Below, in pieces: positions 21,189 through 44,430 of a stretch of 64,000 bases of DNA. The notes beneath the pieces are model-generated. The model was given only the letters and a program-made list of their open reading frames with translations, was not told where the DNA came from and ran no database searches. The stretch is from Thalassospira profundimaris. Lineage in GTDB: Bacteria; Pseudomonadota; Alphaproteobacteria; Rhodospirillales; Thalassospiraceae. A program made the translations under genes and the position numbers. Location of the stretch: contig NZ_JPWF01000018.1 of the NCBI RefSeq assembly GCF_003326675.1, positions 1-64,000 on the forward strand. The letters run 5' to 3'. The stretch's first letter is position 1. Every line of letters begins with the position of its first letter.

Positions 21189-21236
21189 ATCCACACACGA
21201 AATGCGCCCAGATGCCTTTTCGGTGTGGATTTTTTA
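21189..21236 (+). terminator. Orphan intrinsic terminator ahead of the polysaccharide locus
   Basis: ATCCACAC (21189-21196) pairs with GTGTGGAT (21223-21230). After a one-base bulge the stem continues as CGAAA/TTTCG, and seven Ts follow. It points in the plus direction, but no plus-strand gene precedes it, since the sigma-54 regulator gene runs the other way. It therefore ends a short transcript or attenuates the leader of the gene at 21326. Confidence 0.65.
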
Positions 21237-21325
21237 TTTCCGCAAAACGAGATCGCCCTTAACAGGACGCACAACATGCGCCCGCATGATCCGTTATGCC
21301 CGAATTCAGGGGAAAGGAACATTCC

Positions 21326-22297
21326 ATGACCAGACTGAATTACGATATCACAGGAAAACGCATATATATTGCCGGACATCACGGCATGATCGGACAGGCC
21401 ATCATACGCCGGTTACAGCAGGAAGATTGCACCATCCTGACGCGTACACGCCGCGAACTTGACCTTTTGCGCCAGGCACCGGTTACAAGATGGCTTAAAC
21501 AGGCAAAGCCGGATGTTGTGATTATTGCCGCAGGCAAATCAGGTGGATCAAGGGTGCATAATGATCTTCCGGGGGATTTTCTTTATGAAAACCTGATGAT
21601 TGCAACCAATCTGATACAGGGGGCCTTTGAGGCGGATGTCGAAAAGCTTTTGAACATTTCGGCCCCGTATATTTACCCGGAAAATCCCATCTTGCCGACG
21701 CCGGAACATCAATTGCTTATGGGTAAACTTGCCCCCGCATATGAAAATGCAGCAATTGCCAAATTGGCGGCGTTAAAGCTTTGCCAATCCTATCACCAGC
21801 AATTTGGTGCGGATTTCACCACAATCATTCCACCCGAAATTTACGGCCCCGGCGATAATTTTGACCTGCTTTCAGCCCGAACCATCCCGACAATCATCCG
21901 TCATATCCATGATGCAAAATGCGAAGGACGACACATCGCCAAATTGCCGGGGCACGGTACAGTCGTGCGAGAATTTTTATACGTGGATGATTGCGCCGAT
22001 GCAATCATAACCATCCTTGAACATCATCGCCGCAACAGCCCGATAAATGTCGGCACCAGCCAAAGCATTCCCATTTCCACACTTGCCTTCATGATTGCCG
22101 ATATCGTCGGGTTTGACGGCAAAGTCGACTTTGCACGCCAGATTCCGCAGGGCGCGGCAGAACGCAATATGCAGGGAAATACGATCAGGATGCTGGGCTG
22201 GTCCCCGGCGCATAGCCTTGAACAGGGGCTTGTCAAAACCTATGACGCCTTTTGCAATGGGTACTATCGGGAAAATAAGTTGAAACTTGTATCCTGA
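21326..22297 (+). CDS. GDP-L-fucose synthase-like SDR protein lacking catalytic residues
   Basis: A 323-residue extended SDR that tracks GDP-L-fucose synthase along its length: GHHGMIGQAI nucleotide motif, DFLYENLMIATNLI, YGPGDNF, and VREFLYVDDCADA. At the active site it differs. The usual Ser-Ser-Cys before IYP is Ala113-Pro114-Tyr115, the catalytic Tyr is Ala142 (only Lys146 of Tyr-x3-Lys remains) and the catalytic His is Arg185. The ATG at 21326 has AAAGGAAC upstream. It opens the exopolysaccharide locus, is followed by a strong terminator, and has host-like base composition. It may be a non-catalytic or re-purposed homologue. Confidence 0.82.
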   Translation: MTRLNYDITGKRIYIAGHHGMIGQAIIRRLQQEDCTILTRTRRELDLLRQAPVTRWLKQAKPDVVIIAAGKSGGSRVHNDLPGDFLYENLMIATNLIQGAFEADVEKLLNISAPYIYPENPILPTPEHQLLMGKLAPAYENAAIAKLAALKLCQSYHQQFGADFTTIIPPEIYGPGDNFDLLSARTIPTIIRHIHDAKCEGRHIAKLPGHGTVVREFLYVDDCADAIITILEHHRRNSPINVGTSQSIPISTLAFMIADIVGFDGKVDFARQIPQGAAERNMQGNTIRMLGWSPAHSLEQGLVKTYDAFCNGYYRENKLKLVS

Positions 22298-22307
22298 TTG
22301 AACAATC

Positions 22308-22357
22308 AGCTCCGGCCCATGGCACACCAAGACCGTGGGCCGGAGCTTTCGATTTTT
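22308..22357 (+). terminator. Intrinsic terminator after the fucose-synthase-like gene
   Basis: AGCTCCGGCCCA (22308-22319) and TGGGCCGGAGCT (22336-22347) form a perfect 12-bp stem, followed by TTCGATTTTT. It separates this gene from the main polysaccharide operon. Confidence 0.85.
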
Positions 22358-22538: not shown

Positions 22539-24044
22539 ATGAAAAAAGCCGGGGAACAGACAGACCCATTGGGTACGGTTTGGAACCTTATTGATCAGGG
22601 TCAGCTTTGGGGAGCTGCGACAGTGCTTGCGCATAGCAGAAGCCACGTGCTTCTACGCGATTTAATGGCGGTTTCGGACGTCGTCGTTCTTTTTGCTTCT
22701 GCGATGCTTGCATCCTGGTTGCGATTTGGCACATTCATACCGACAGATCATCTTTTGATGCCGGCATTTGCCGCGCCATTATTTTATATGGCGGCCATGA
22801 TGGTTTTGCGCGGGTATCACACCCTTGATCCGCAAACATTACAGATGGGCCTTTTGCGGCTTTGCTGCGCACAGGCCATTTCCTTTGCCTTGTTGCTTGG
22901 CATTGCCTATTTTTCCAAGGTATCGGATGATTTTTCCCGTTTGTGGACGGGGTATTTTGCCATTATTGGTGTTGCGTCCCTTATATTGCTTCGGCTTTGC
23001 GCCTTTGGTGCGATCCGCGCCCTTGGCAAACAGAAATCCTTTCGCCCCAAGATCGTCCTTATATCGTCAAACCCGACGCCATCGATCCTTGAGATGCTTG
23101 AACAACGGATCGGGTCCCAGCACCAATACCGGATTATTCATCGCAGTATTATAAACGGCGGTAAAACCGGCACAGCCGACCTTCAGGCCGAACTGAACAA
23201 AATCCGGGCACTTGCCCCGGATATGATCATCTTGGCAATCAGCCAATCGGACCGGGCACGTTTTGCCGATCAACTTGATGATATTGATGCGATATCGGCC
23301 GACATCCTCGAAGTTGGCGATTTAACAAGCCATATGTCGCCTTGCGCCCCGGATCACGATCTTTTGCTTGAACCGGGACGCGAATGGATTGTGATGGCAG
23401 GCCTTCCCTTCATTCGCCGTGCCATGCGCCCGTTTGGGCAACGCGGATGGTGGATCAAGCGTGCCGAGGACGTCATCCTTGGATTGATCGCAGTAATTAT
23501 TGCAGCCCCCGTCATGCTTGCCGTGGCATTTGCCATAAAGCTGACAAGTGCCGGACCGGTACTTTACGTGCAGAAACGCCATGGTTTTAACGGCGAGACG
23601 ATACGCGTCCTGAAATTTCGCTCCATGTATGTCGACCAGTGCGCCACGAAGCGCGATGACACCGTTCCACAAGCAACCCGCAATGATCCGCGCATAACCC
23701 CCGTTGGCAAATTCATCCGCAAAACAAGTTTGGATGAATTACCACAATTGTTTAATGTATTGCGCGGGGATATGTCACTGGTTGGGCCGCGCCCGCACGC
23801 GACACAGCACAACACCGCCTATCGCACAAGGATTGACGGATATTTCGCCCGGCATCGGGTGAAGCCGGGAATTACTGGTTGGGCGCAGGTTAATGGTTGG
23901 CGCGGGGAGACAGACACAGACGAGAAGATGCGGCAGCGAGTGCTGCATGACATGTATTACATTGCCAATTGGTCTCCAATATTAGATGTCCGGGTTTTAA
24001 CCCTGACCATTGCCACTTTTTTCAAGCAAAAAAATGCTCATTAA
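22539..24044 (+). CDS. Undecaprenyl-phosphate glycosylphosphotransferase (priming enzyme, WcaJ/PssY type)
   Basis: A 501-residue polyprenyl-phosphate hexose-1-phosphate transferase. Four N-terminal helices and a central Rossmann-like region precede the catalytic C-terminal third: the WWIKRAEDVILGL membrane dip, KLTSAGPVLYVQKRHG, VLKFRSMY, RKTSLDELPQLFNVLRGDMS, VGPRPHA and KPGITGWAQVNGWRG. It links the first sugar phosphate to undecaprenyl phosphate at the inner membrane and so starts each repeat unit. Its stop is nearly contiguous with galE. Confidence 0.93.
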   Translation: MKKAGEQTDPLGTVWNLIDQGQLWGAATVLAHSRSHVLLRDLMAVSDVVVLFASAMLASWLRFGTFIPTDHLLMPAFAAPLFYMAAMMVLRGYHTLDPQTLQMGLLRLCCAQAISFALLLGIAYFSKVSDDFSRLWTGYFAIIGVASLILLRLCAFGAIRALGKQKSFRPKIVLISSNPTPSILEMLEQRIGSQHQYRIIHRSIINGGKTGTADLQAELNKIRALAPDMIILAISQSDRARFADQLDDIDAISADILEVGDLTSHMSPCAPDHDLLLEPGREWIVMAGLPFIRRAMRPFGQRGWWIKRAEDVILGLIAVIIAAPVMLAVAFAIKLTSAGPVLYVQKRHGFNGETIRVLKFRSMYVDQCATKRDDTVPQATRNDPRITPVGKFIRKTSLDELPQLFNVLRGDMSLVGPRPHATQHNTAYRTRIDGYFARHRVKPGITGWAQVNGWRGETDTDEKMRQRVLHDMYYIANWSPILDVRVLTLTIATFFKQKNAH

Positions 24045-25185: not shown

Positions 25186-25275
25186 TTGTCACAAACGCAA
25201 AAAGCCGGGGGACATAAAGCTCCCACACTCTCCAACGATAGGCCTGCTCATAAAATCGAGGATCCCTCACAGTGA
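25186..25275 (+). CDS. Possible 29-residue leader ORF coupled to manC
   Basis: A TTG at 25186 has an almost ideal ribosome site, AGGAGGGGG at 25171-25179. The frame runs 29 codons, beginning MSQTQKAGGHKAPTL, and its TGA (25273-25275) overlaps the manC GTG (25272-25274). It resembles nothing I recognise. It may exist to deliver ribosomes to manC, which has only a modest site of its own, rather than to make a useful peptide. Confidence 0.4.
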   Translation: MSQTQKAGGHKAPTLSNDRPAHKIEDPSQ

Positions 25276-26699
25276 CAAAACAATTGCTCATCCCAGTTAT
25301 TCTGGCTGGCGGCCAAGGCACCCGCCTATGGCCCATGTCACGTGCGAGCAGACCTAAACAGTTTTTACCGCTGACAGGTCAGATCAGCCTGTTTCAAGAG
25401 GCCCTTCTACGGGTAGCACAAGATTCACGCTACGACGCACCAATAGTTCTGACAGGGGAGCCCTATCGCTTTCTTGTCAAAGAGCAGGCAGCAGTAGTCA
25501 ACGTCCAGTTGCGGGACATTTTGCTTGAGCCTTCCCCGCGCAACACAGCTGCGGCAATTGCTGCCGTTTGCGCAGCACTTGAAGAAGAAGGTGAGAAAAA
25601 CGCACTGATTCACGTACTCGCATCCGACCATCAAATAGAGATCGGAGATGACTGGAACAGTGCGATTGATCACGCAACCACAGCAGCCAAGAATGGCCGC
25701 CTCGTTACATTCGGGATTACACCAAATGAACCGGTGACAGGATATGGTTATATCCGTGCAGGCAAAGAGAAAGATGGTGTAGCACCGGTCATACGCTTTA
25801 TAGAAAAGCCGGATCGGGAAACAGCCGAGAAAATGATTGCTGAAGGCGGGCACTACTGGAACTCAGGCATGTTCCTATTTGCTATTCAAACTTTCCTAAA
25901 AGAATGCACACATCTTGCATCAGAGCTACGAATAGCTACCAGGAATGCGGTCAAGAAATCCATACGCGACCTAGATTTCCTCCGCCTTGATGCAGAAAGT
26001 TTCGCTACAGCAGAAAACATCTCCGTCGATTACGCAATTTTCGAGAAGACTAGTAAGGCAAGCGTTGTACCGACGGCAATCCGTTGGTCAGATCTAGGGA
26101 GTTGGGAAGCAGTTTGGAAGGCCGAAGTTCCGGACGAGAATGGCAATGTTATTCGTGGCAAAGCAACGCTTTCAGACACAAGAAACGCATTGGCGATCAC
26201 GGACGGTCCACATGTGGCCATCAACGGGCTTGATGATGTCGCGGTCATCGCAGCAGCAGATGCAGTGTTTGTTGGTCGGCTTTCGCAAGCACAAACGATG
26301 GGCTCATTCGTTAAACATCTTAGGGCAAATCCCGCCACGCAGGCAATCACAGAAATACATGAAACAGTGTATCGGCCCTGGGGTAGCTACACGACACTCG
26401 TTTCCGGAGAGCGTCATCAGGTCAAGAAAATCACCGTCAAACCCGGTAAGCGTCTTTCGCTACAAAAACACCATCACCGCGCTGAACATTGGGTGGTTGT
26501 AAAAGGTACTGCCGAGGTAACTGTAGAACACGATATCAGAATCTTGCATGAGAACGAAAGCACTTTCATCCCCATCGGGGCAATACATAGGCTTGGAAAC
26601 CCAGGAAAAATCGTTCTGGAATTGATAGAAATCCAGTCGGGAGCTTATCTTGGCGAAGATGATATTGTACGGATCGAAGATGAATTTGGAAGAGTATAA
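25272..26699 (+). CDS. manC: Mannose-1-phosphate guanylyltransferase / mannose-6-phosphate isomerase
   Basis: A 475-residue bifunctional type-II enzyme. The pyrophosphorylase signature GGQGTRLWPMSRASRPKQF is followed by SPRNTAAAIAA, FIEKPD and HYWNSGMFLF. The C-terminal cupin carries RPWGSY, KPGKRLSLQKHHHRAEHW and FIPIGAIHRLGNPG. It makes GDP-mannose, the likely substrate of the epimerase encoded just downstream. The start is a GTG at 25272, overlapping the stop of a short upstream reading frame. Confidence 0.95.
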   Translation: MTKQLLIPVILAGGQGTRLWPMSRASRPKQFLPLTGQISLFQEALLRVAQDSRYDAPIVLTGEPYRFLVKEQAAVVNVQLRDILLEPSPRNTAAAIAAVCAALEEEGEKNALIHVLASDHQIEIGDDWNSAIDHATTAAKNGRLVTFGITPNEPVTGYGYIRAGKEKDGVAPVIRFIEKPDRETAEKMIAEGGHYWNSGMFLFAIQTFLKECTHLASELRIATRNAVKKSIRDLDFLRLDAESFATAENISVDYAIFEKTSKASVVPTAIRWSDLGSWEAVWKAEVPDENGNVIRGKATLSDTRNALAITDGPHVAINGLDDVAVIAAADAVFVGRLSQAQTMGSFVKHLRANPATQAITEIHETVYRPWGSYTTLVSGERHQVKKITVKPGKRLSLQKHHHRAEHWVVVKGTAEVTVEHDIRILHENESTFIPIGAIHRLGNPGKIVLELIEIQSGAYLGEDDIVRIEDEFGRV

Positions 26700-26717: not shown

Positions 26718-27707
26718 GTGAAAACAGCATTGGTGACTGGCGGTGGTGGCTTTATTGGCGCACATCTGGTTTCGCGCTTGAAACGTGAGGGCTTCTGGGT
26801 GCGAGCGGTTGACCTCAAGTATCCGGATTTTTCAGAAACAGATGCAGATGATTTCGTGATTGGCGATTTGCGCGACCAAGCTGTCTGCAGCCGAGTTATT
26901 GATAGACGCTTTGACGAAGTTTACCAGCTTGCGGCCGATATGGGTGGAGCAGGATATATATTTACGGGCGAACATGACGCCGACGTCATGCACAATTCGG
27001 CAACTATTAATCTCAACATGGTTGATGCGTGCCTGAAGCGCAACATCAAGCATGTGTTCTATTCTTCCTCTGCCTGTATGTATCCCGCCTACAATCAGGA
27101 AGATCCAAACAACCCTAACTGCGCAGAGGACTCCGCCTACCCAGCGGCACCCGATAGCGAATACGGTTGGGAGAAGCTTTTCTCCGAGCGCCTTTATCTG
27201 GCGTTCAACCGGAACCACAACATGGAATGTCGCGTTGCGCGCTACCACAATATCTTTGGACCGCAAGGGACTTGGGAAGGTGGCAAGGAGAAAGCTCCGG
27301 CAGCCATCTGCCGCAAGGTGGCTGAAGCACAAGGCGGTGGGGACATCGAAATCTGGGGTGACGGAAACCAGACAAGATCCTTCCTTTATATTGACGAGTG
27401 TCTGGAGGGAACAACACGCCTTTTGCGCTCTCCATATAACGGGCCATTCAACGTAGGGTCTGACGAAATGGTAACAATCAACCAACTCGTCGATATGGTT
27501 TCACATATCGCCGGCAAGAAGCTTCACAAGAACCACATCCCAGGCCCTCTCGGCGTACGCGGACGCAATTCAGACAATAGACTAATTGCCGAGACACTTG
27601 GCTGGAAACCTTCGTCCCCTCTAGTGAAAGGGCTTGAAAAGACCTACGCGTGGGTAGAAGAACAAGTACGCAGAAAACGTGGCGAAAATCAGCCATCTAC
27701 TAAATAA
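26718..27707 (+). CDS. GDP-mannose 3,5-epimerase-like NAD-dependent epimerase
   Basis: A 329-residue extended SDR starting at a GTG. It matches plant GDP-mannose 3,5-epimerase closely: SSSACMYP with the catalytic Cys, YGWEKL with Tyr-x3-Lys, RYHNIFGPQGTWEGG, KEKAPAAICRK with the second catalytic Lys, WGDGNQTRSFLYIDEC, and HIPGPLGVRGRNSDN. The enzyme turns GDP-mannose into GDP-L-galactose (and GDP-L-gulose). With manC directly upstream, the locus probably supplies an L-galactose-type sugar. Confidence 0.88.
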   Translation: MKTALVTGGGGFIGAHLVSRLKREGFWVRAVDLKYPDFSETDADDFVIGDLRDQAVCSRVIDRRFDEVYQLAADMGGAGYIFTGEHDADVMHNSATINLNMVDACLKRNIKHVFYSSSACMYPAYNQEDPNNPNCAEDSAYPAAPDSEYGWEKLFSERLYLAFNRNHNMECRVARYHNIFGPQGTWEGGKEKAPAAICRKVAEAQGGGDIEIWGDGNQTRSFLYIDECLEGTTRLLRSPYNGPFNVGSDEMVTINQLVDMVSHIAGKKLHKNHIPGPLGVRGRNSDNRLIAETLGWKPSSPLVKGLEKTYAWVEEQVRRKRGENQPSTK

Positions 27708-36708: not shown

Positions 36709-38184
36709 CTAGCCCTTACTAGGCCAGCTTTGGGACCAGCCCAATGCAAGAACAAACATTAAACATATACCCATCGCAGGAATCTGGACGCTGAAATCGA
36801 CAAGACTATGAACGGCAACAATCAAAGCAGAAGCCGTACCCAAAATCGGGTAAATCTGATCGCGATGTCGAGAAACAACGCCCGATACATTTCTTGCAAA
36901 AATCACAATGAACGTGGCAAGAACCATAATCAGCGAAATTAGACCTGCGTCAAAAGAAAACTCAAGATAACTGTTATGCGCTAAATCCCATGTGGCCCAG
37001 GCAACATTCTGTGGCTTGAACTGACGAAAGCCACTCTCAAAAGTTCCGTAGCCATACCCAGTTGCCGGAGACAGCTGGATACCCTGCATTACCCCTTCAT
37101 AGACAGCAAAGCGAATGGTCCCGTCTCCCTCAGCGTACTCAAATCGCTGATCCAAGGCATCACCACTAAACCAGTAGCCGACCACTAGCAGGCAAACGAC
37201 GCCACCGGCAGACCTTCTGGCCAATTTTCGAGGCAAAACCCTGCTGACGGCAAGGCCAATTAAGACGACGAATAAACCGAGCATACCACTAGAGAAGCCA
37301 GCACGGGAATGTGTCAACATCAACGCCGTCCCAGTCATCAGTCCCCCGACGACAGGCAACCATGCCTTTTTCTGAACACCATCCGTCATCAGTCGCAGCA
37401 TTTCCCGCCACGTACTACTCTTTCTTACGTCATGCTCAAGTACATTCACGAGCACAACAATTGAGGACGCCAGTCCCAGCGCAGCATAAGTTGCGTAACT
37501 ATTACGATTAACAAATGTACTGGTTAGATCCCCCCGATAGCTTGTCTTATCGAACCAAAGGACCTTCTCCCAGCCACCGAAGAACACAACAAGCCCGTAA
37601 ATCGCATAACACGTCGAAACGATGACGAAGAATTTAAGCATCATCGATGCGTTCTTGCGATCCCGTCCATGGCGCGCTGCAAGCCAGAATACTCCCGCAT
37701 AGGCCAGCAGCACCATCAATGCATCCCATGTCATTTCGGGACTGATCGTTACATAGTTCGGAAGCAACTGTCCAAGTTGTGCACTGACCTCTGACCATAT
37801 CGGGTGGGCGATATCGGTAAAGATATCCGGTGTTGCCTGAAGGATAATCCAGATGATGACAGGTAGGAACAGAAGGAACGGCAACGCGACGCGGCCCATG
37901 AAGCGGCTTTCGCCGCGCACCGGATCAAATCCGGCGGCAACGGCATCAAGCAAAACAAGAACGCCGACCCAAAGCGATAATATGGACCAAGCCCAAGGGC
38001 GGTTTGAACCAAACGGCAAGGGTGCAAGTGCAATAAGTACAAGCAATCCATAAAAGCCTATTCGCCGTAATATATGCACGCTATTTGCCCCTGCCTGTCC
38101 CGTGTGATCATTACCGGAATTCAGTATCCCAAACCTCATCGTGTTATACACAGCCCCGGAAATGCTGCAAACCGATTTGGTCAT
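36709..38184 (-). CDS. O-antigen ligase/polymerase family membrane protein
   Basis: About 491 residues with ten or more helices and the Wzy_C domain (THSRAGFSSGMLG, then a periplasmic loop with GYGYGTFESGF and AHNSYLEFSFDAG). It is encoded convergently with the cassette and divergently from wzc, and its base composition is host-like, unlike the Wzy at 34270. It could be a ligase, or the polymerase of a different glycan. Start unclear: ATG at 38184 or ATG at 38139; neither has a strong ribosome site. Confidence 0.85.
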   Translation of the reverse strand: MTKSVCSISGAVYNTMRFGILNSGNDHTGQAGANSVHILRRIGFYGLLVLIALAPLPFGSNRPWAWSILSLWVGVLVLLDAVAAGFDPVRGESRFMGRVALPFLLFLPVIIWIILQATPDIFTDIAHPIWSEVSAQLGQLLPNYVTISPEMTWDALMVLLAYAGVFWLAARHGRDRKNASMMLKFFVIVSTCYAIYGLVVFFGGWEKVLWFDKTSYRGDLTSTFVNRNSYATYAALGLASSIVVLVNVLEHDVRKSSTWREMLRLMTDGVQKKAWLPVVGGLMTGTALMLTHSRAGFSSGMLGLFVVLIGLAVSRVLPRKLARRSAGGVVCLLVVGYWFSGDALDQRFEYAEGDGTIRFAVYEGVMQGIQLSPATGYGYGTFESGFRQFKPQNVAWATWDLAHNSYLEFSFDAGLISLIMVLATFIVIFARNVSGVVSRHRDQIYPILGTASALIVAVHSLVDFSVQIPAMGICLMFVLALGWSQSWPSKG

Positions 38185-38259: not shown

Positions 38260-38321
38260 TTTGAAACTTGCGCCACATTATTCGATGTGGTCGTAACCGG
38301 GTCAGAATTTGGGGAACCGTT

Positions 38322-40619
38322 TTGAATAATACGACGAAGGTCAGCGGCGTGGCCGATAACGGCGCGCTTGACGTCAAAACATCGCGCTTGAAAAACCTGA
38401 CAGACCGCATTTCGCAATCGGCAAATGGCGATGAAATTGATTTGCAGGAACTGCTGCGCACCCTTTGGCGCCGAAAATCACTTATATTTTCTGTTGTGGC
38501 AATCCTGACCGCCCTTACCACCCTTGTCGTGTTTCAGGTTACCCCGAAATATACAGCAACGACCAACGTGATCATCGATGGCCGTAAAAATAACGTTGTC
38601 GATATCGAAAGCGTGATGAGTGGTATGTCAGCCGAAATGGGCGCGCTGCTTAGTCAGGTTGAAGTTATCCGATCAACATCCCTGATCAGACGTGTTGTTG
38701 AAAAGCTTAACCTTGAAAACGACCCGGAATTCAACGCAGCAATTGCCAAAAAATCGTGGCTCGCAAGCTTGTTGGACCCAAAAACATTTGTTCCGGACGA
38801 TGTCTTGCTTGCACTTGGTTTGACCGACAATGAAATCATCCTGAGCCAGGATGAACTGGCCGAACAAACGACCAACCGCGTTGTCAACACTGTGCAAGAA
38901 AGCATGGAAGTTGCCGTTGTTGGAAGATCACAGGTCATAGCCATCAATTTCACATCCGTAAGCGCACGAAAATCGGCATTGATCGCCAATACAATCGCCG
39001 ATCAATATATCGTCGATCAGCTTGAAGCAAAATTCGAAGCAACCCGTCGCGCCACATCGTGGCTTAATGATCGTCTGGGCGATTTGCGTCAACGGGTTGA
39101 AGTATCGGAACAGGCGGTTGAGGCGTATCGCGAAACCATATCGGCGCAGTCTGGTCAAAGCAGCTCTATGACTGAGCAGCAGATATCGGAACTGAATTCC
39201 CAGCTGATCCTTGCACAGGCCAACCGCGCAGAAGCACAAGCACGCTTAAATCAGGTTCAACGCCTGCTAAACAGCAGCTCTGACATTTCATCTGCCGCAG
39301 AAGTTTTGAACTCACAGCTGATCCAGCGTCTGCGTTCACAGGAAGCCGAAGTCATCCGAAAGGTGTCGGAGCTAGAATCCCGCTACGGTGATCGTCACCC
39401 CCAGATGATCAAGGCCCGGGCAGAGCTGACCGACCTGCGTGCCTCGATCGAGGGTGAAGTTCGTAAAATTGCCCAAAGCCTGCGCAACGAAATGGGTGTT
39501 GCCGACGCCCGGGTTGCGACATTGCGCCAAAGCTTAAACCAGCTTGAAGTCAAGAACAGCAGTCAGAACCAGGCAGCCGTTCGCCTTCGCGAGCTTGAAC
39601 GCGAAGCCAATGCAAACCGGTTGCTTTATGAAAACTTCCTGTCACGTTTCAAGGAAACCAACAATCAGGAAGACCTTCAGGAAGCCGACGCCCGCATTAT
39701 TTCCCGCGCCGAAGTGCCGGTTGATCCATCCGCCCCGAAGAAGAAACTGATTATCGCGGTTGCGCTTGTCGGTTCCCTCTTCCTGGGTGTGGTCCTTGTG
39801 TTTGTTCTTGAACAACTCGACAATACCTTCCGGGGTGCAGAGCAGATCGAACAAATGACCGGCATTCCGGCAATCGGGATGGTGCCGCTGTTAACCGGCA
39901 CGTTGCTTGGTCGAACGGATGTCGGGCGATACCCGTCACAGAAGCCGGGATCAGCAACAACTGAGTCCGTCAGAAGCCTTCGCACATCCCTGATGCTGTC
40001 CAATGTTGATGCCCCGCCAAAAGTGGTTGGCATCACGTCCACAGTTCCGTCAGAGGGTAAATCCACACTGGCGGCATGGCTGGCGCAAGTCGCAGCAACA
40101 TCCGGTCAACGTGTCTTGCTTGTCGATTGTGACCTTCGCCGTCCAACCGTGCATAGAACTTTCAGTGTTGATAACGAACACAGCATTGTGGAGCTGTTGG
40201 CCGGTGAATGCCAACTTGATCAGGCCATCAAGAAGGATGAGGAAACCGGTATTTACCTGCTTCCGGCAAAGAATACCCAGGCCAATGCGCTTGATCTGCT
40301 GTCATCGGCCCATATGGCAGATAACGTCAAGGCACTTCGGGAACATTTTGACTTTATCGTTCTTGATGCCCCGCCTGTACTTGCCGTTTCTGACGCCAAG
40401 GTCATCGGCCTGATGGCGGATAAAATGCTTTATGTCGTCAAGTGGGATGGCACACCGCGCGGCCTTGTTCAGGCGGGCCTGAAGGAAACTGTTGAGTCCG
40501 GTATTGACCTTGCAGGCACGGTTCTTTCGCAAGTCAATGTCAAAAAGCACTCGAAATACGGTTATGGCGACTATGGTTATTATTATGGCCGCTACAAAGA
40601 TTATTATTCGAGCAAGTAA
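38322..40619 (+). CDS. wzc: Polysaccharide co-polymerase with BY-kinase domain (Wzc type, PCP-2a)
   Basis: About 765 residues. A Wzz domain with a helix near 50 is followed by a long periplasmic coiled coil (GNVR/LEV region) and a second helix. The cytoplasmic tyrosine kinase has Walker A TVPSEGKSTL (about 575), Walker A' VLLVDCDLRRP and Walker B FIVLDAPPV. The C-terminus is a tyrosine cluster (YGYGDYGYYYGRYKDYY), the autophosphorylation tail that controls chain length. TTG at 38322 has GGGGA upstream; an open frame extends to a TTG at 38268. It heads the export gene group. Confidence 0.93.
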   Translation: MNNTTKVSGVADNGALDVKTSRLKNLTDRISQSANGDEIDLQELLRTLWRRKSLIFSVVAILTALTTLVVFQVTPKYTATTNVIIDGRKNNVVDIESVMSGMSAEMGALLSQVEVIRSTSLIRRVVEKLNLENDPEFNAAIAKKSWLASLLDPKTFVPDDVLLALGLTDNEIILSQDELAEQTTNRVVNTVQESMEVAVVGRSQVIAINFTSVSARKSALIANTIADQYIVDQLEAKFEATRRATSWLNDRLGDLRQRVEVSEQAVEAYRETISAQSGQSSSMTEQQISELNSQLILAQANRAEAQARLNQVQRLLNSSSDISSAAEVLNSQLIQRLRSQEAEVIRKVSELESRYGDRHPQMIKARAELTDLRASIEGEVRKIAQSLRNEMGVADARVATLRQSLNQLEVKNSSQNQAAVRLRELEREANANRLLYENFLSRFKETNNQEDLQEADARIISRAEVPVDPSAPKKKLIIAVALVGSLFLGVVLVFVLEQLDNTFRGAEQIEQMTGIPAIGMVPLLTGTLLGRTDVGRYPSQKPGSATTESVRSLRTSLMLSNVDAPPKVVGITSTVPSEGKSTLAAWLAQVAATSGQRVLLVDCDLRRPTVHRTFSVDNEHSIVELLAGECQLDQAIKKDEETGIYLLPAKNTQANALDLLSSAHMADNVKALREHFDFIVLDAPPVLAVSDAKVIGLMADKMLYVVKWDGTPRGLVQAGLKETVESGIDLAGTVLSQVNVKKHSKYGYGDYGYYYGRYKDYYSSK

Positions 40620-40622
40620 CGG

Positions 40623-41312
40623 ATGAAACGTACAATTTTGCGCCGGCTCCCCGCGATTATCGGGTTGGTCGGCGCAGTTTTTCTGCTGTCACTGGCCGTC
40701 CCCAGAACCATCAGTTCAATCACTTACGAACTGACAACACCCGTTTTCGACAATAGAAACAATCCACAGATTTCCGAAGAACAACTTCTGGAAATAAAAG
40801 ACGATCTTCTTTATGCGATCTCGTGGGTCGACAATCCGGTAACCTGGTCAAGACTGGGATATGTTTATCTTGCACTTGGCAACCGATCCACTGCCCCCGA
40901 TCAAAAAACACTTAATCTGGAAGAAGCTGAAAACGCATTTACCAATGCAGTCGCCGGATCACCGATGGATCCATATTACTGGCTGCGCCTCAGCTATGCG
41001 CGGCTGCTTTCCGGTGGAAAAAACGATGGCAGCGCGGTTGAAGCCCTGAAAATGTCGCTTCTTACGGGCCCTTACGAGCGCCCCATTGCCGTTGAACAAA
41101 TTCAATATGCCGCCCTGCTGTGGGATCAACTGGACGATGAACAACAAAATATTGTTCGGGAAAAAGTTCGGTGGATTTCCGGGCTGGAAAATAAAAAGCT
41201 TCTGACATTGGCCAAGTCCAATATCGAGGCTATGACAGTAATCCTATCTGCCTTGGCAGATGGCGATTTGAACCGGTTCACACGATTTATCAAAGCATTA
41301 AACAAAACCTAA
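40623..41312 (+). CDS. VpsP-like polysaccharide-locus protein
   Basis: A 229-residue protein with an N-terminal membrane helix (IIGLVGAVFLLSLAV) and a helical, TPR-like body (WSRLGYVYLALGN, AENAFTNAV, YYWLRLSYARLLSG). It follows wzc by three bases. Size, topology and position match VpsP-type proteins encoded beside Wzc-like co-polymerases; their role is not established. Confidence 0.6.
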   Translation: MKRTILRRLPAIIGLVGAVFLLSLAVPRTISSITYELTTPVFDNRNNPQISEEQLLEIKDDLLYAISWVDNPVTWSRLGYVYLALGNRSTAPDQKTLNLEEAENAFTNAVAGSPMDPYYWLRLSYARLLSGGKNDGSAVEALKMSLLTGPYERPIAVEQIQYAALLWDQLDDEQQNIVREKVRWISGLENKKLLTLAKSNIEAMTVILSALADGDLNRFTRFIKALNKT

Positions 41313-42546: not shown

Positions 42547-43809
42547 GTGAGTTTTCTCAAAGGGGGACTTCTTTCGACCGTAGCTGCAGGTGCAATTGCC
42601 GCAGCCGTCGTTACACCGGTCCATGCCCAGGAACAGGTCAATCCGAACCAGGGCGTCGCACAGCGTACTGCTGAAGGTTATGATCCCGTAGGGATGCCGG
42701 TTGGCTCCTTCCGCTTCTTCCCGAAAGTAGAAGTTGTCGAAGATTACAACGACAACATCTATAAATCTGACACAGACGAAAGTGACGACTTCATTACCAA
42801 AGTGAAGCCGACGCTTAATCTTCGTTCAGACTGGAATCAGCATTCCTTGCAGTTTGATGCCGGTGCCGAAGTTGGTCGTTATGCGTCATCCGATGATGAT
42901 GATTACGAGGACTACAACTTTGGTGTTCGGGGACGCTATGATGCCTCCCAGGCATTAAAGTTCAATGCTTCCGGGAAATATTTGTTCGGGCATGAAGACC
43001 GTGGTGGCGATGATGTTGCGACCGACGCAGCGGCTCCGGTTGAATATGAACAGATGGACGGTGAACTTGGCGTAACCTATAAGCCGAACCGCTTCAGCAT
43101 CGGTGCACGTGCAACTGCCAAAGACTACGATTATGATGATAACCGTACTCTTCTTGGCGGCACCACCAACAACGATGACCGTGACCGGTTTGAAACTCTT
43201 GGTGAAGTTCGTCTTGGTTACGAAATTCAGGACGGTTACGAAGCCTACCTGAAGTCGAGCTACAATGACCGTGATTACGATGATCGTGTAGATGACAATA
43301 ACGAAAATCGTGATTCGGATGGCTACAAGGTTCAGGCTGGTATCGCCATTGATCTTGATCGACTGATCCGTGCAGATCTTGCCGCCGGTTGGATGGAACA
43401 GGATTACACAGACAGCAGCCTGCGTGATGTAGACGGTTATTCCCTTGATGCACGTGTGCGTTGGAACTTGACGGAACTGACCACCATTCGCGGTACAGCT
43501 TCCCGTTCAATCAACGAGACAACCACAGCAAATGCGTCCTCGACCATTGGCACCAACTTCGGTGTTGGCGTTGATCACGAATTCCTTCGTAACCTTGTCG
43601 CCAAAGCAGACCTTAAATATGGTCTGAGCGAGTATGAAGGCCTGACCCGTGAAGATGACAAATACACCGCATCTGTTGGGATCGATTATAAACTGAACCG
43701 CAACTTCTATGCTGGTGCCAAGTACCAGTTTGAAGAGCGTGATTCCAACCAGAACACCAATGATTACGATCAGAACATCTTCACCATTACCCTTGGTGCA
43801 CAGTTCTAA
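42547..43809 (+). CDS. Outer-membrane beta-barrel protein of the polysaccharide locus
   Basis: A 420-residue protein with a signal peptide ending at VHA|QEQ, then many alternating 10-12-residue strands rich in Tyr and Asp, and a C-terminal ITLGAQF with the terminal Phe used for BAM insertion. It fits the BBP2-type putative beta-barrel porin family (VpsM-like). It starts at a GTG with AGGGGAA upstream. Beside a short OPX protein, it may be the actual outer-membrane pore. A strong terminator follows. Confidence 0.85.
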   Translation: MSFLKGGLLSTVAAGAIAAAVVTPVHAQEQVNPNQGVAQRTAEGYDPVGMPVGSFRFFPKVEVVEDYNDNIYKSDTDESDDFITKVKPTLNLRSDWNQHSLQFDAGAEVGRYASSDDDDYEDYNFGVRGRYDASQALKFNASGKYLFGHEDRGGDDVATDAAAPVEYEQMDGELGVTYKPNRFSIGARATAKDYDYDDNRTLLGGTTNNDDRDRFETLGEVRLGYEIQDGYEAYLKSSYNDRDYDDRVDDNNENRDSDGYKVQAGIAIDLDRLIRADLAAGWMEQDYTDSSLRDVDGYSLDARVRWNLTELTTIRGTASRSINETTTANASSTIGTNFGVGVDHEFLRNLVAKADLKYGLSEYEGLTREDDKYTASVGIDYKLNRNFYAGAKYQFEERDSNQNTNDYDQNIFTITLGAQF

Positions 43810-43849
43810 AAGTATCAGACAGCTGTTCCTGTCTTGGTCAAAATGCTAT

Positions 43850-43884
43850 AGTCCCTTCGGGTAAACTCGAAGGGACTTTTTTTT
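43850..43884 (+). terminator. Strong intrinsic terminator between beta-barrel and OPX genes
   Basis: AGTCCCTTCG (43850-43859) and CGAAGGGACT (43868-43877) pair perfectly, followed by eight Ts. Only 12 bases separate the T-run from the OPX start codon. An extended -10 (TGCTATAGT, 43844-43852) overlaps the left arm. Confidence 0.92.
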
Positions 43885-43896
43885 ACAGGGTTGAAA

Positions 43897-44430
43897 ATGC
43901 GTCACATTTTTGGATTTTTCATTGCGGCTTGTGTAGCAGTATTGTTGTCATTCCCTGCAACAGCCCAGCAACCGACTTACACCCTTGGCTCCGGCGACAA
44001 GGTCCGCGTTACCGTATTTGGTGAACAGGATCTTTCTGGTGAATTTGAAATCAGTGGCGATGGCCAGATATCGCTTCCGCTGATTGGCAATCTTGATGCC
44101 GGTGGGAAAAGCCTTCGACAACTTAAAGAGACAATGGAATCCGCCCTTCGCGAAGGTTACCTCAAAGACCCCAAAGTCGCGATCGAAGTTATGAACTATC
44201 GTCCATTTTATATTCTGGGCGAAGTCAATGAACCGGGTAGCTATCCGTATGTCAGTGGCATGAGCGTTTTGAATGCGGTTGCGCTTGGCGGGGGCTTTAC
44301 CTATCGCGCGGATAAGGAAGATATCCTGATTATCCGGGGCGGCGATGAAAGCCGGAAGCCGGAAAAGGCAACACCGGAAACGGTTGTTCTTCCGGGCGAT
44401 ATTGTCCGCGTTGAAGAACGGTTCTTCTAA
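43897..44430 (+). CDS. Short polysaccharide export (OPX) protein
   Basis: A 177-residue periplasmic protein. A signal peptide ends near ATAQQ. The polysaccharide-export domain (YTLGSGDKVRVTVFGEQDLSGEF) is followed by one SLBB domain (YILGEVNEPGSYPYVSGMSVLNAVALGGGF). Wza-type proteins of about 370 residues carry further domains and a C-terminal membrane helix; these are absent. AGGG lies six bases before the ATG at 43897. It probably works with the beta-barrel encoded upstream. Confidence 0.92.
   Translation: MRHIFGFFIAACVAVLLSFPATAQQPTYTLGSGDKVRVTVFGEQDLSGEFEISGDGQISLPLIGNLDAGGKSLRQLKETMESALREGYLKDPKVAIEVMNYRPFYILGEVNEPGSYPYVSGMSVLNAVALGGGFTYRADKEDILIIRGGDESRKPEKATPETVVLPGDIVRVEERFF

Follow-up and report, generated by a model that had tools for sequence, protein, structure and literature searches.

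A genus-restricted probable pseudoenzyme variant of the GDP-L-fucose synthase family in an exopolysaccharide locus of Thalassospira

GDP-L-fucose synthase (GFS) carries out reduction through a Ser-Tyr-Lys triad and epimerisation through a Cys-His dyad (PMC7949155, PMC12362431). We describe a gene of Thalassospira profundimaris whose product has the GFS fold and yet is not a GFS by the criteria we tested; it is a probable pseudoenzyme variant of the GFS family restricted to its genus, in which catalytic residues have been lost across the orthologues while the reading frame is under selection. Our best explanation, which we hold with about as much belief as doubt, is that this pseudo-GFS is a conserved pseudoenzyme that acts without catalysis, with NADP(H) bound, in an accessory or regulatory role. 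Annotation pipelines would probably label these genes as GDP-L-fucose synthase, and the polymers would then be expected to contain fucose, an expectation that fails by this route because four of the five genomes concerned have no GMD. Among the papers searched, none joined the term pseudoenzyme with GDP-L-fucose synthase.

Results

The gene and its product

The window, that is, the whole stretch of DNA that was analysed, comprises 64,000 nucleotides (contig NZ_JPWF01000018.1, positions 1 to 64,000). The gene and the elements on either side of it are as follows.

21190 to 21245, forward strand: conserved 5' leader core, a terminator-like hairpin (21190-21229) and then a U-tract
21326 to 22297, forward strand: pseudo-GFS gene, 323 amino acids, an extended SDR with the GFS fold
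22308 to 22357, forward strand: intrinsic terminator-like inverted repeat (arms within 22308-22347, 93% complementary), then a T-rich tract

Upstream of the ATG at 21326 stands a GGAAAGG-like site, and relatives use the same start; a longer open reading frame from 21296 was rejected as the true gene because the extension is not conserved. In profile searches the protein matches Pfam Epimerase and the NCBIfam family GDPFucSynFcl (332 bits, E 3e-99), the latter below the equivalog cut-off of 500 bits for GFS function. The original prediction had given the gene a terminator of its own, and this was confirmed as the repeat with 15-nt arms at 22308-22347, which stands between pseudo-GFS and wcaJ. 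With a leader on its 5' side and a terminator on its 3' side, pseudo-GFS looks like its own transcription unit.

Both catalytic systems are replaced on a conserved fold

The residue register was drawn from three collinear sources: phmmer comparison with the PDB, an alignment of 77 sequences and the structural match of an AlphaFold model. The letters for E. coli Fcl are those that we take the enzyme to have, and their register agrees with the PDB alignment. Among solved GFS structures, phmmer gave E 4e-79 for the Brucella enzyme (8du0) and E of about 1e-65 for E. coli GFS. The model (mean pLDDT 87.5, pTM 0.88) superposes on E. coli GFS 1gfs with Z 41.4 and an rmsd of 1.8 A over 307 residues, and the C. 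jejuni heptose 4-reductase 8ewu is among its best structural matches (Z 42.6).

In this register, E. coli Ser107, Ser108 and Cys109 become Ala113, Pro114 and Tyr115 in the window protein, Tyr136 and His179 become Ala142 and Arg185, and Lys140 is retained as Lys146. The original prediction had named four replacements, of Ser107, Cys109, Tyr136 and His179, and these are correct by both sequence and structural alignment, as is its statement, for the window protein, that the nucleotide motif and Lys146 remain. The Ser107-Tyr136-Lys140 reduction triad is absent, being Ala113, Ala142 and Lys146 here and Ala or Gly, Ala or Ser, and Lys or Arg across the clade of relatives described below; the Cys109-His179 epimerisation dyad is likewise absent, being Tyr115 and Arg185 here and Tyr or His, and Arg, in the clade. 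Two further pocket residues are lost in the window protein, Asn165 becoming Glu171 and Trp202 becoming Pro208. It had been foreseen that Tyr139 or another residue might prove to occupy the catalytic place, and the structural alignment found neither: Tyr139 aligns with Asn133, three residues ahead of the catalytic Tyr, and three of the eight clade members have Cys there, and no register shift bringing another Tyr to that place was found in the superposition of model and GFS. For three of these catalytic positions, single-substitution variants of E. coli GFS are in the PDB (S107A, Y136E and K140R).

The cofactor side of the protein has fared differently. The GxxGxxG motif for NADP binding is kept, with G17, G20 and G23 invariant in the clade, and window Arg42 aligns with E. 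coli Arg36, presumably the 2'-phosphate contact. Arg215 is also kept and is equivalent to human GFS Arg215, which binds the beta-phosphate (PMC12362431). A part of the original prediction that lost ground is that the protein might bind sugar nucleotides: the loss of Trp202 and Asn165 weakens it, yet the Arg209 equivalent is kept in all clade members and Lys283 is replaced by Arg.

One clade in Thalassospira

A search of 29 Thalassospira genomes (the window genome is G000) found relatives at 52-56% identity in four others, one copy in G013 and a tandem pair, A and B, in each of G010, G017 and G019. These eight intact proteins in five genomes, which rule out a lone sequencing or annotation quirk, group in the tree as one long-stemmed branch supported at 98%. 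All eight lack the equivalents of Ser107, Ser108, Cys109, Tyr136, Asn165, His179 and Trp202; Lys140 is Arg in seven and remains Lys in the window protein alone, while the position of Tyr115 is His in five. Conservation in orthologues had been proposed as a check on the replaced residues, and it favours the claim, with the four catalytic residues absent in 8/8; the assertion that such a protein cannot use the known epimerase/reductase mechanism is well supported for the whole clade.

The same positions are almost fixed elsewhere. Cys109, Lys140, Asn165, His179, Trp202, Arg209 and Lys283 are invariant in 69 cellular relatives, and when the 80 viral-contig relatives most similar to the clade are added, Cys109, Lys140, Asn165 and His179 still stand at 100%, with Ser107 and Tyr136 each present in 144/149; the Ser/Cys/Tyr/Lys/His set is complete in all 80 viral-contig proteins. 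Among the 69 relatives, 82 positions are conserved in 93% or more; every clade member keeps 37 of these, and 19 are lost throughout the clade, several of which now carry a different fixed residue. At least seven canonical-invariant positions have been re-fixed to a new residue (A64G, V66S, F104N, L105I, I141L, H179R and K283R). No clade member was found outside Thalassospira in searches of the order, the sampled class, GTDB genome contigs, plasmids and viral contigs; matches outside the genus fall below about 45% identity and all whose residues were read, the plasmid ones left out, keep Cys, Lys and His.

A second degenerate GFS group was seen in one family of the same order (L062, L063, L065 and L068, from genomes G047, G054, G048 and G053). 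Its proteins have Ala, Ala and Ser for Ser107, Ser108 and Tyr136 and keep Cys109, His179, Lys140, Asn165 and Trp202, as if epimerisation were retained and reduction gone.

Could members of the clade still be active, with altered chemistry that most resembles that of the Campylobacter heptose C4 reductases? We consider this possible, though on the unlikely side. Such an enzyme might transfer hydride from NADPH, with Tyr115 (or His) and Lys146 or Arg as proton relay, or perform non-redox chemistry in a polar pocket (Glu/Asp171, Arg185, Arg280), and the new residues are indeed conserved; the retained Lys146, with Tyr115 and the polar Glu171, Arg185 and Arg280, could suit new chemistry. The GFS paralogue MlghC of C. 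jejuni carries Tyr109/Arg179 and Phe136 and nevertheless works as a C4 reductase (PMC7949155), so that a Tyr/Arg pair like that of the window protein and loss of the catalytic Tyr need not on their own put an end to reductase activity, and human GFS Y143F retains about 3% activity (PMC12362431). As both of these proteins still work, neither losing the Tyr nor losing the dyad is enough by itself to abolish function. However, MlghC retains Ser107 and Lys140, whereas in the clade Ser107 and Tyr136 are Ala, Gly or Ser in every member and Lys140 is Arg in nearly all; furthermore, the Tyr115 that would serve as relay is His in most members and the guanine-stacking Trp202 is gone. We favour the non-catalytic, NADP(H)-bound reading since Ser, Tyr, Cys, His and Trp are gone together, and usually Lys, and the Rossmann motif, Arg42 and Arg215 stay.

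The protein follows the assembly machinery of one locus type

The exopolysaccharide genes of the window that bear on the argument are these.

22539 to 24044, forward strand: WcaJ-type polyprenyl-phosphate sugar phosphotransferase (TIGR03025 over cut-off; TIGR03023 402.6 bits, just under cut-off)
25272 to 26699, forward strand: ManC, mannose-1-phosphate guanylyltransferase/mannose-6-phosphate isomerase, for GDP-mannose supply (TIGR01479, 608 bits)
26718 to 27707, forward strand: epimerase-family SDR, GDP-mannose 3,5-epimerase-like (GME-like) by profile matches
36709 to 38184, reverse strand: Wzy_C-type polymerase/ligase; in the other four genomes its homologues directly precede pseudo-GFS on the upstream side
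38268 to 40619, forward strand: Wzc-like chain-length/tyrosine kinase protein, conserved locus core
40623 to 41312, forward strand: 229-residue protein with no Pfam match, conserved locus core
42547 to 44430, forward strand: BBP2-type outer-membrane porin (42547-43809) and Wza-like export protein (43891-44430), conserved core

The locus that holds pseudo-GFS has, in each of the five genomes, the same wza, porin, 229-residue protein, wzc and wzy and a WcaJ gene. This core occurs in 8/29 genomes, and pseudo-GFS is intact in five of these eight and in none of the other 21, counts that share ancestry and are not independent. The 229-residue protein and this wzy were found in the same eight genomes in the 29-genome search. 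In the window the WcaJ gene starts the exopolysaccharide gene run, and the original description of pseudo-GFS as opening the locus holds in the window genome only; in the relatives the gene is downstream of wzy.

The sugar genes, in contrast to the core, differ: ManC, the GME-like SDR and GalE in the window; ManC and a UDP-GlcNAc 2-epimerase beside pseudo-GFS in G010; an ADH/GFO-IDH fusion in G017, with no ManC within the 36 kb read; and GMD, GFS and ManC in G019. Genome searches found no gmd over cut-off in G000, G010, G013 or G017, and no normal GFS in four of the five pseudo-GFS genomes, that of the window included, where the next-best homologue is the GME-like SDR, at 25% identity. The core being constant and the sugar genes differing, the protein follows the assembly machinery and not a sugar pathway. 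The absence of GMD in most genomes and of a constant sugar pathway adjoining the gene also counts against the altered-chemistry alternative.

The original prediction had left the choice among a regulator, a subunit and a new enzyme, and the same observations make it less likely that the protein serves a fucose enzyme as a dedicated subunit, as neither GFS nor GMD is present in four of the five genomes and the neighbouring sugar genes vary. More generally, the four-helix dimer interface of GFS might let a non-catalytic subunit hetero-oligomerise with an SDR that is active, or let A pair with B. Dimers of GFS-type enzymes do form by way of a helix bundle (PMC7949155), the helices in question are kept in the model and three genomes have the A/B pair; the gene is single-copy in the window and in G013, however, there is no constant adjoining SDR gene, and only one genome of the five has a normal GFS, and we regard this arrangement as improbable.

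Selection and exchange

Purifying selection keeps pseudo-GFS: dN/dS between copies, where dS is not saturated, is 0.19-0.35, and frames are intact down to 52% identity, with lost residues replaced at the same positions across the clade. The neighbours have lower ratios, 0.03-0.06 for wzc and 0.10-0.14 for wzy.

The A+B cassette (L031:8450-11400 compared with L032 and L034) is about 95-97% identical in nucleotides among three Thalassospira genomes. Identity across wzc and most of wzy is mostly 75-93%, rises in the cassette and collapses directly after it, where the variable sugar genes start; dS is about 0.1 in the cassette against 0.5-1.6 in the flanking core genes (G010, G017 and G019). From this contrast with the flanks it follows that species have recently exchanged the cassette. 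A truncated pseudo-GFS remnant with an in-frame stop lies beside wzy in G009 (L132:12230-12470, reverse strand), and hence the gene is dispensable, which speaks against a conserved pseudoenzyme.

The cassette, set beside core genes that are mostly 80-90% identical among the three genomes and ending where locus similarity ends, and the G009 remnant are what might be expected of a weakly selected passenger, a degenerate GFS copy persisting at the border of an exchanged variable exopolysaccharide region. We think this quite unlikely, as there are eight intact frames, old paralogues and orthologues alike have diverged with dN/dS clearly below 1, loss and replacement are uniform at the same positions, and the leader is more conserved than fourfold sites.

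A conserved leader RNA

All eight genes share a leader core of 56 nt, about 80-140 nt before the start codon, in which 42/56 columns are invariant, compared with 6/61 fourfold sites within the genes (8 sequences). It consists of a hairpin (-19.1 kcal/mol, z -4.2) followed by UUUUUUAUUU. The 3' arm GUGUGGA may alternatively pair with the conserved UUCCGC at 21238-21243, a pairing that is 3-6 kcal/mol less stable; both structures can form in 8/8 leaders, and the UUCCGC pairing is possibly an antiterminator. The leader has the layout of a transcription attenuator, from which we infer attenuation, and covariation is too sparse for proof, since the consensus fold shows almost no variation among the outer pairs of the hairpin.

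One copy of the motif TGCGCCCG lies in the leader hairpin; another copy, about 80 nt further downstream, could close a second hairpin. The leader has no Rfam match, and no further copies were found in the window genome or elsewhere in the genus; near matches in G009 and G017, lying between housekeeping genes, were dismissed as chance. A leader peptide was also rejected: one frame is similar in several leaders, and a one-base insertion in G013 breaks it.

Discussion

The course of events that we favour begins with a GFS-type SDR that gave rise to pseudo-GFS once, in Thalassospira or close to it. Both catalytic systems, the reduction triad and the epimerisation dyad, would then have been lost, and the emptied pocket would have come to carry new fixed residues, with the fold kept and NADP(H) binding very probably kept also. 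Bound to cofactor or metabolite, the protein would most likely serve as a non-catalytic sensor or adaptor for the constant export and polymerisation machinery of one exopolysaccharide locus type, and it would be expressed as its own unit through the terminator/antiterminator leader. A bolder form, which we hold to be unlikely, would make genus-specific SDR pseudoenzymes sensors of NADPH or nucleotide sugar that set exopolysaccharide output, with a dedicated attenuator RNA, in a cassette exchanged at the border of the variable region. If the protein is a true pseudoenzyme, a nucleotide-sugar enzyme has here become a component of a polysaccharide locus that does no catalysis, and how an SDR enzyme becomes a regulator is made a testable question by the clean ancestor, the pairs of paralogues and the specific leader RNA.

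A precedent for regulation by an SDR is offered by the NmrA-type dinucleotide-sensing regulators, which lack the catalytic triad, bind NAD(P) and regulate. They belong to a different SDR branch, however, and have no known sequence relation to pseudo-GFS beyond the fold. The closest solved sequence is the Brucella GFS (8du0, 7ll6), likewise alphaproteobacterial, which keeps Ser, Cys, Tyr, Lys and His. With E. coli Fcl/WcaG (1gfs, 1bws, 1e6u) the protein shares the fold over its whole length, 41% identity in structural alignment, GxxGxxG and Arg209; unlike that enzyme, the clade is without Ser107, Cys109, Tyr136, His179, Asn165 and Trp202, and has Arg for Lys140 in 7/8 members and for Lys283; the window genome, moreover, has no GMD. 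The GDP-heptose C4 reductase MlghC (7anc; also 7m13, Cj1428) resembles the window protein in its Tyr/Arg pair, Tyr115/Arg185 here, and in having lost the catalytic Tyr. In contrast, MlghC keeps Ser107, Lys140 and a guanine-site Trp and serves a heptose pathway, whereas the clade has neither Ser107 nor that Trp and has Ala or Ser in place of Tyr136.
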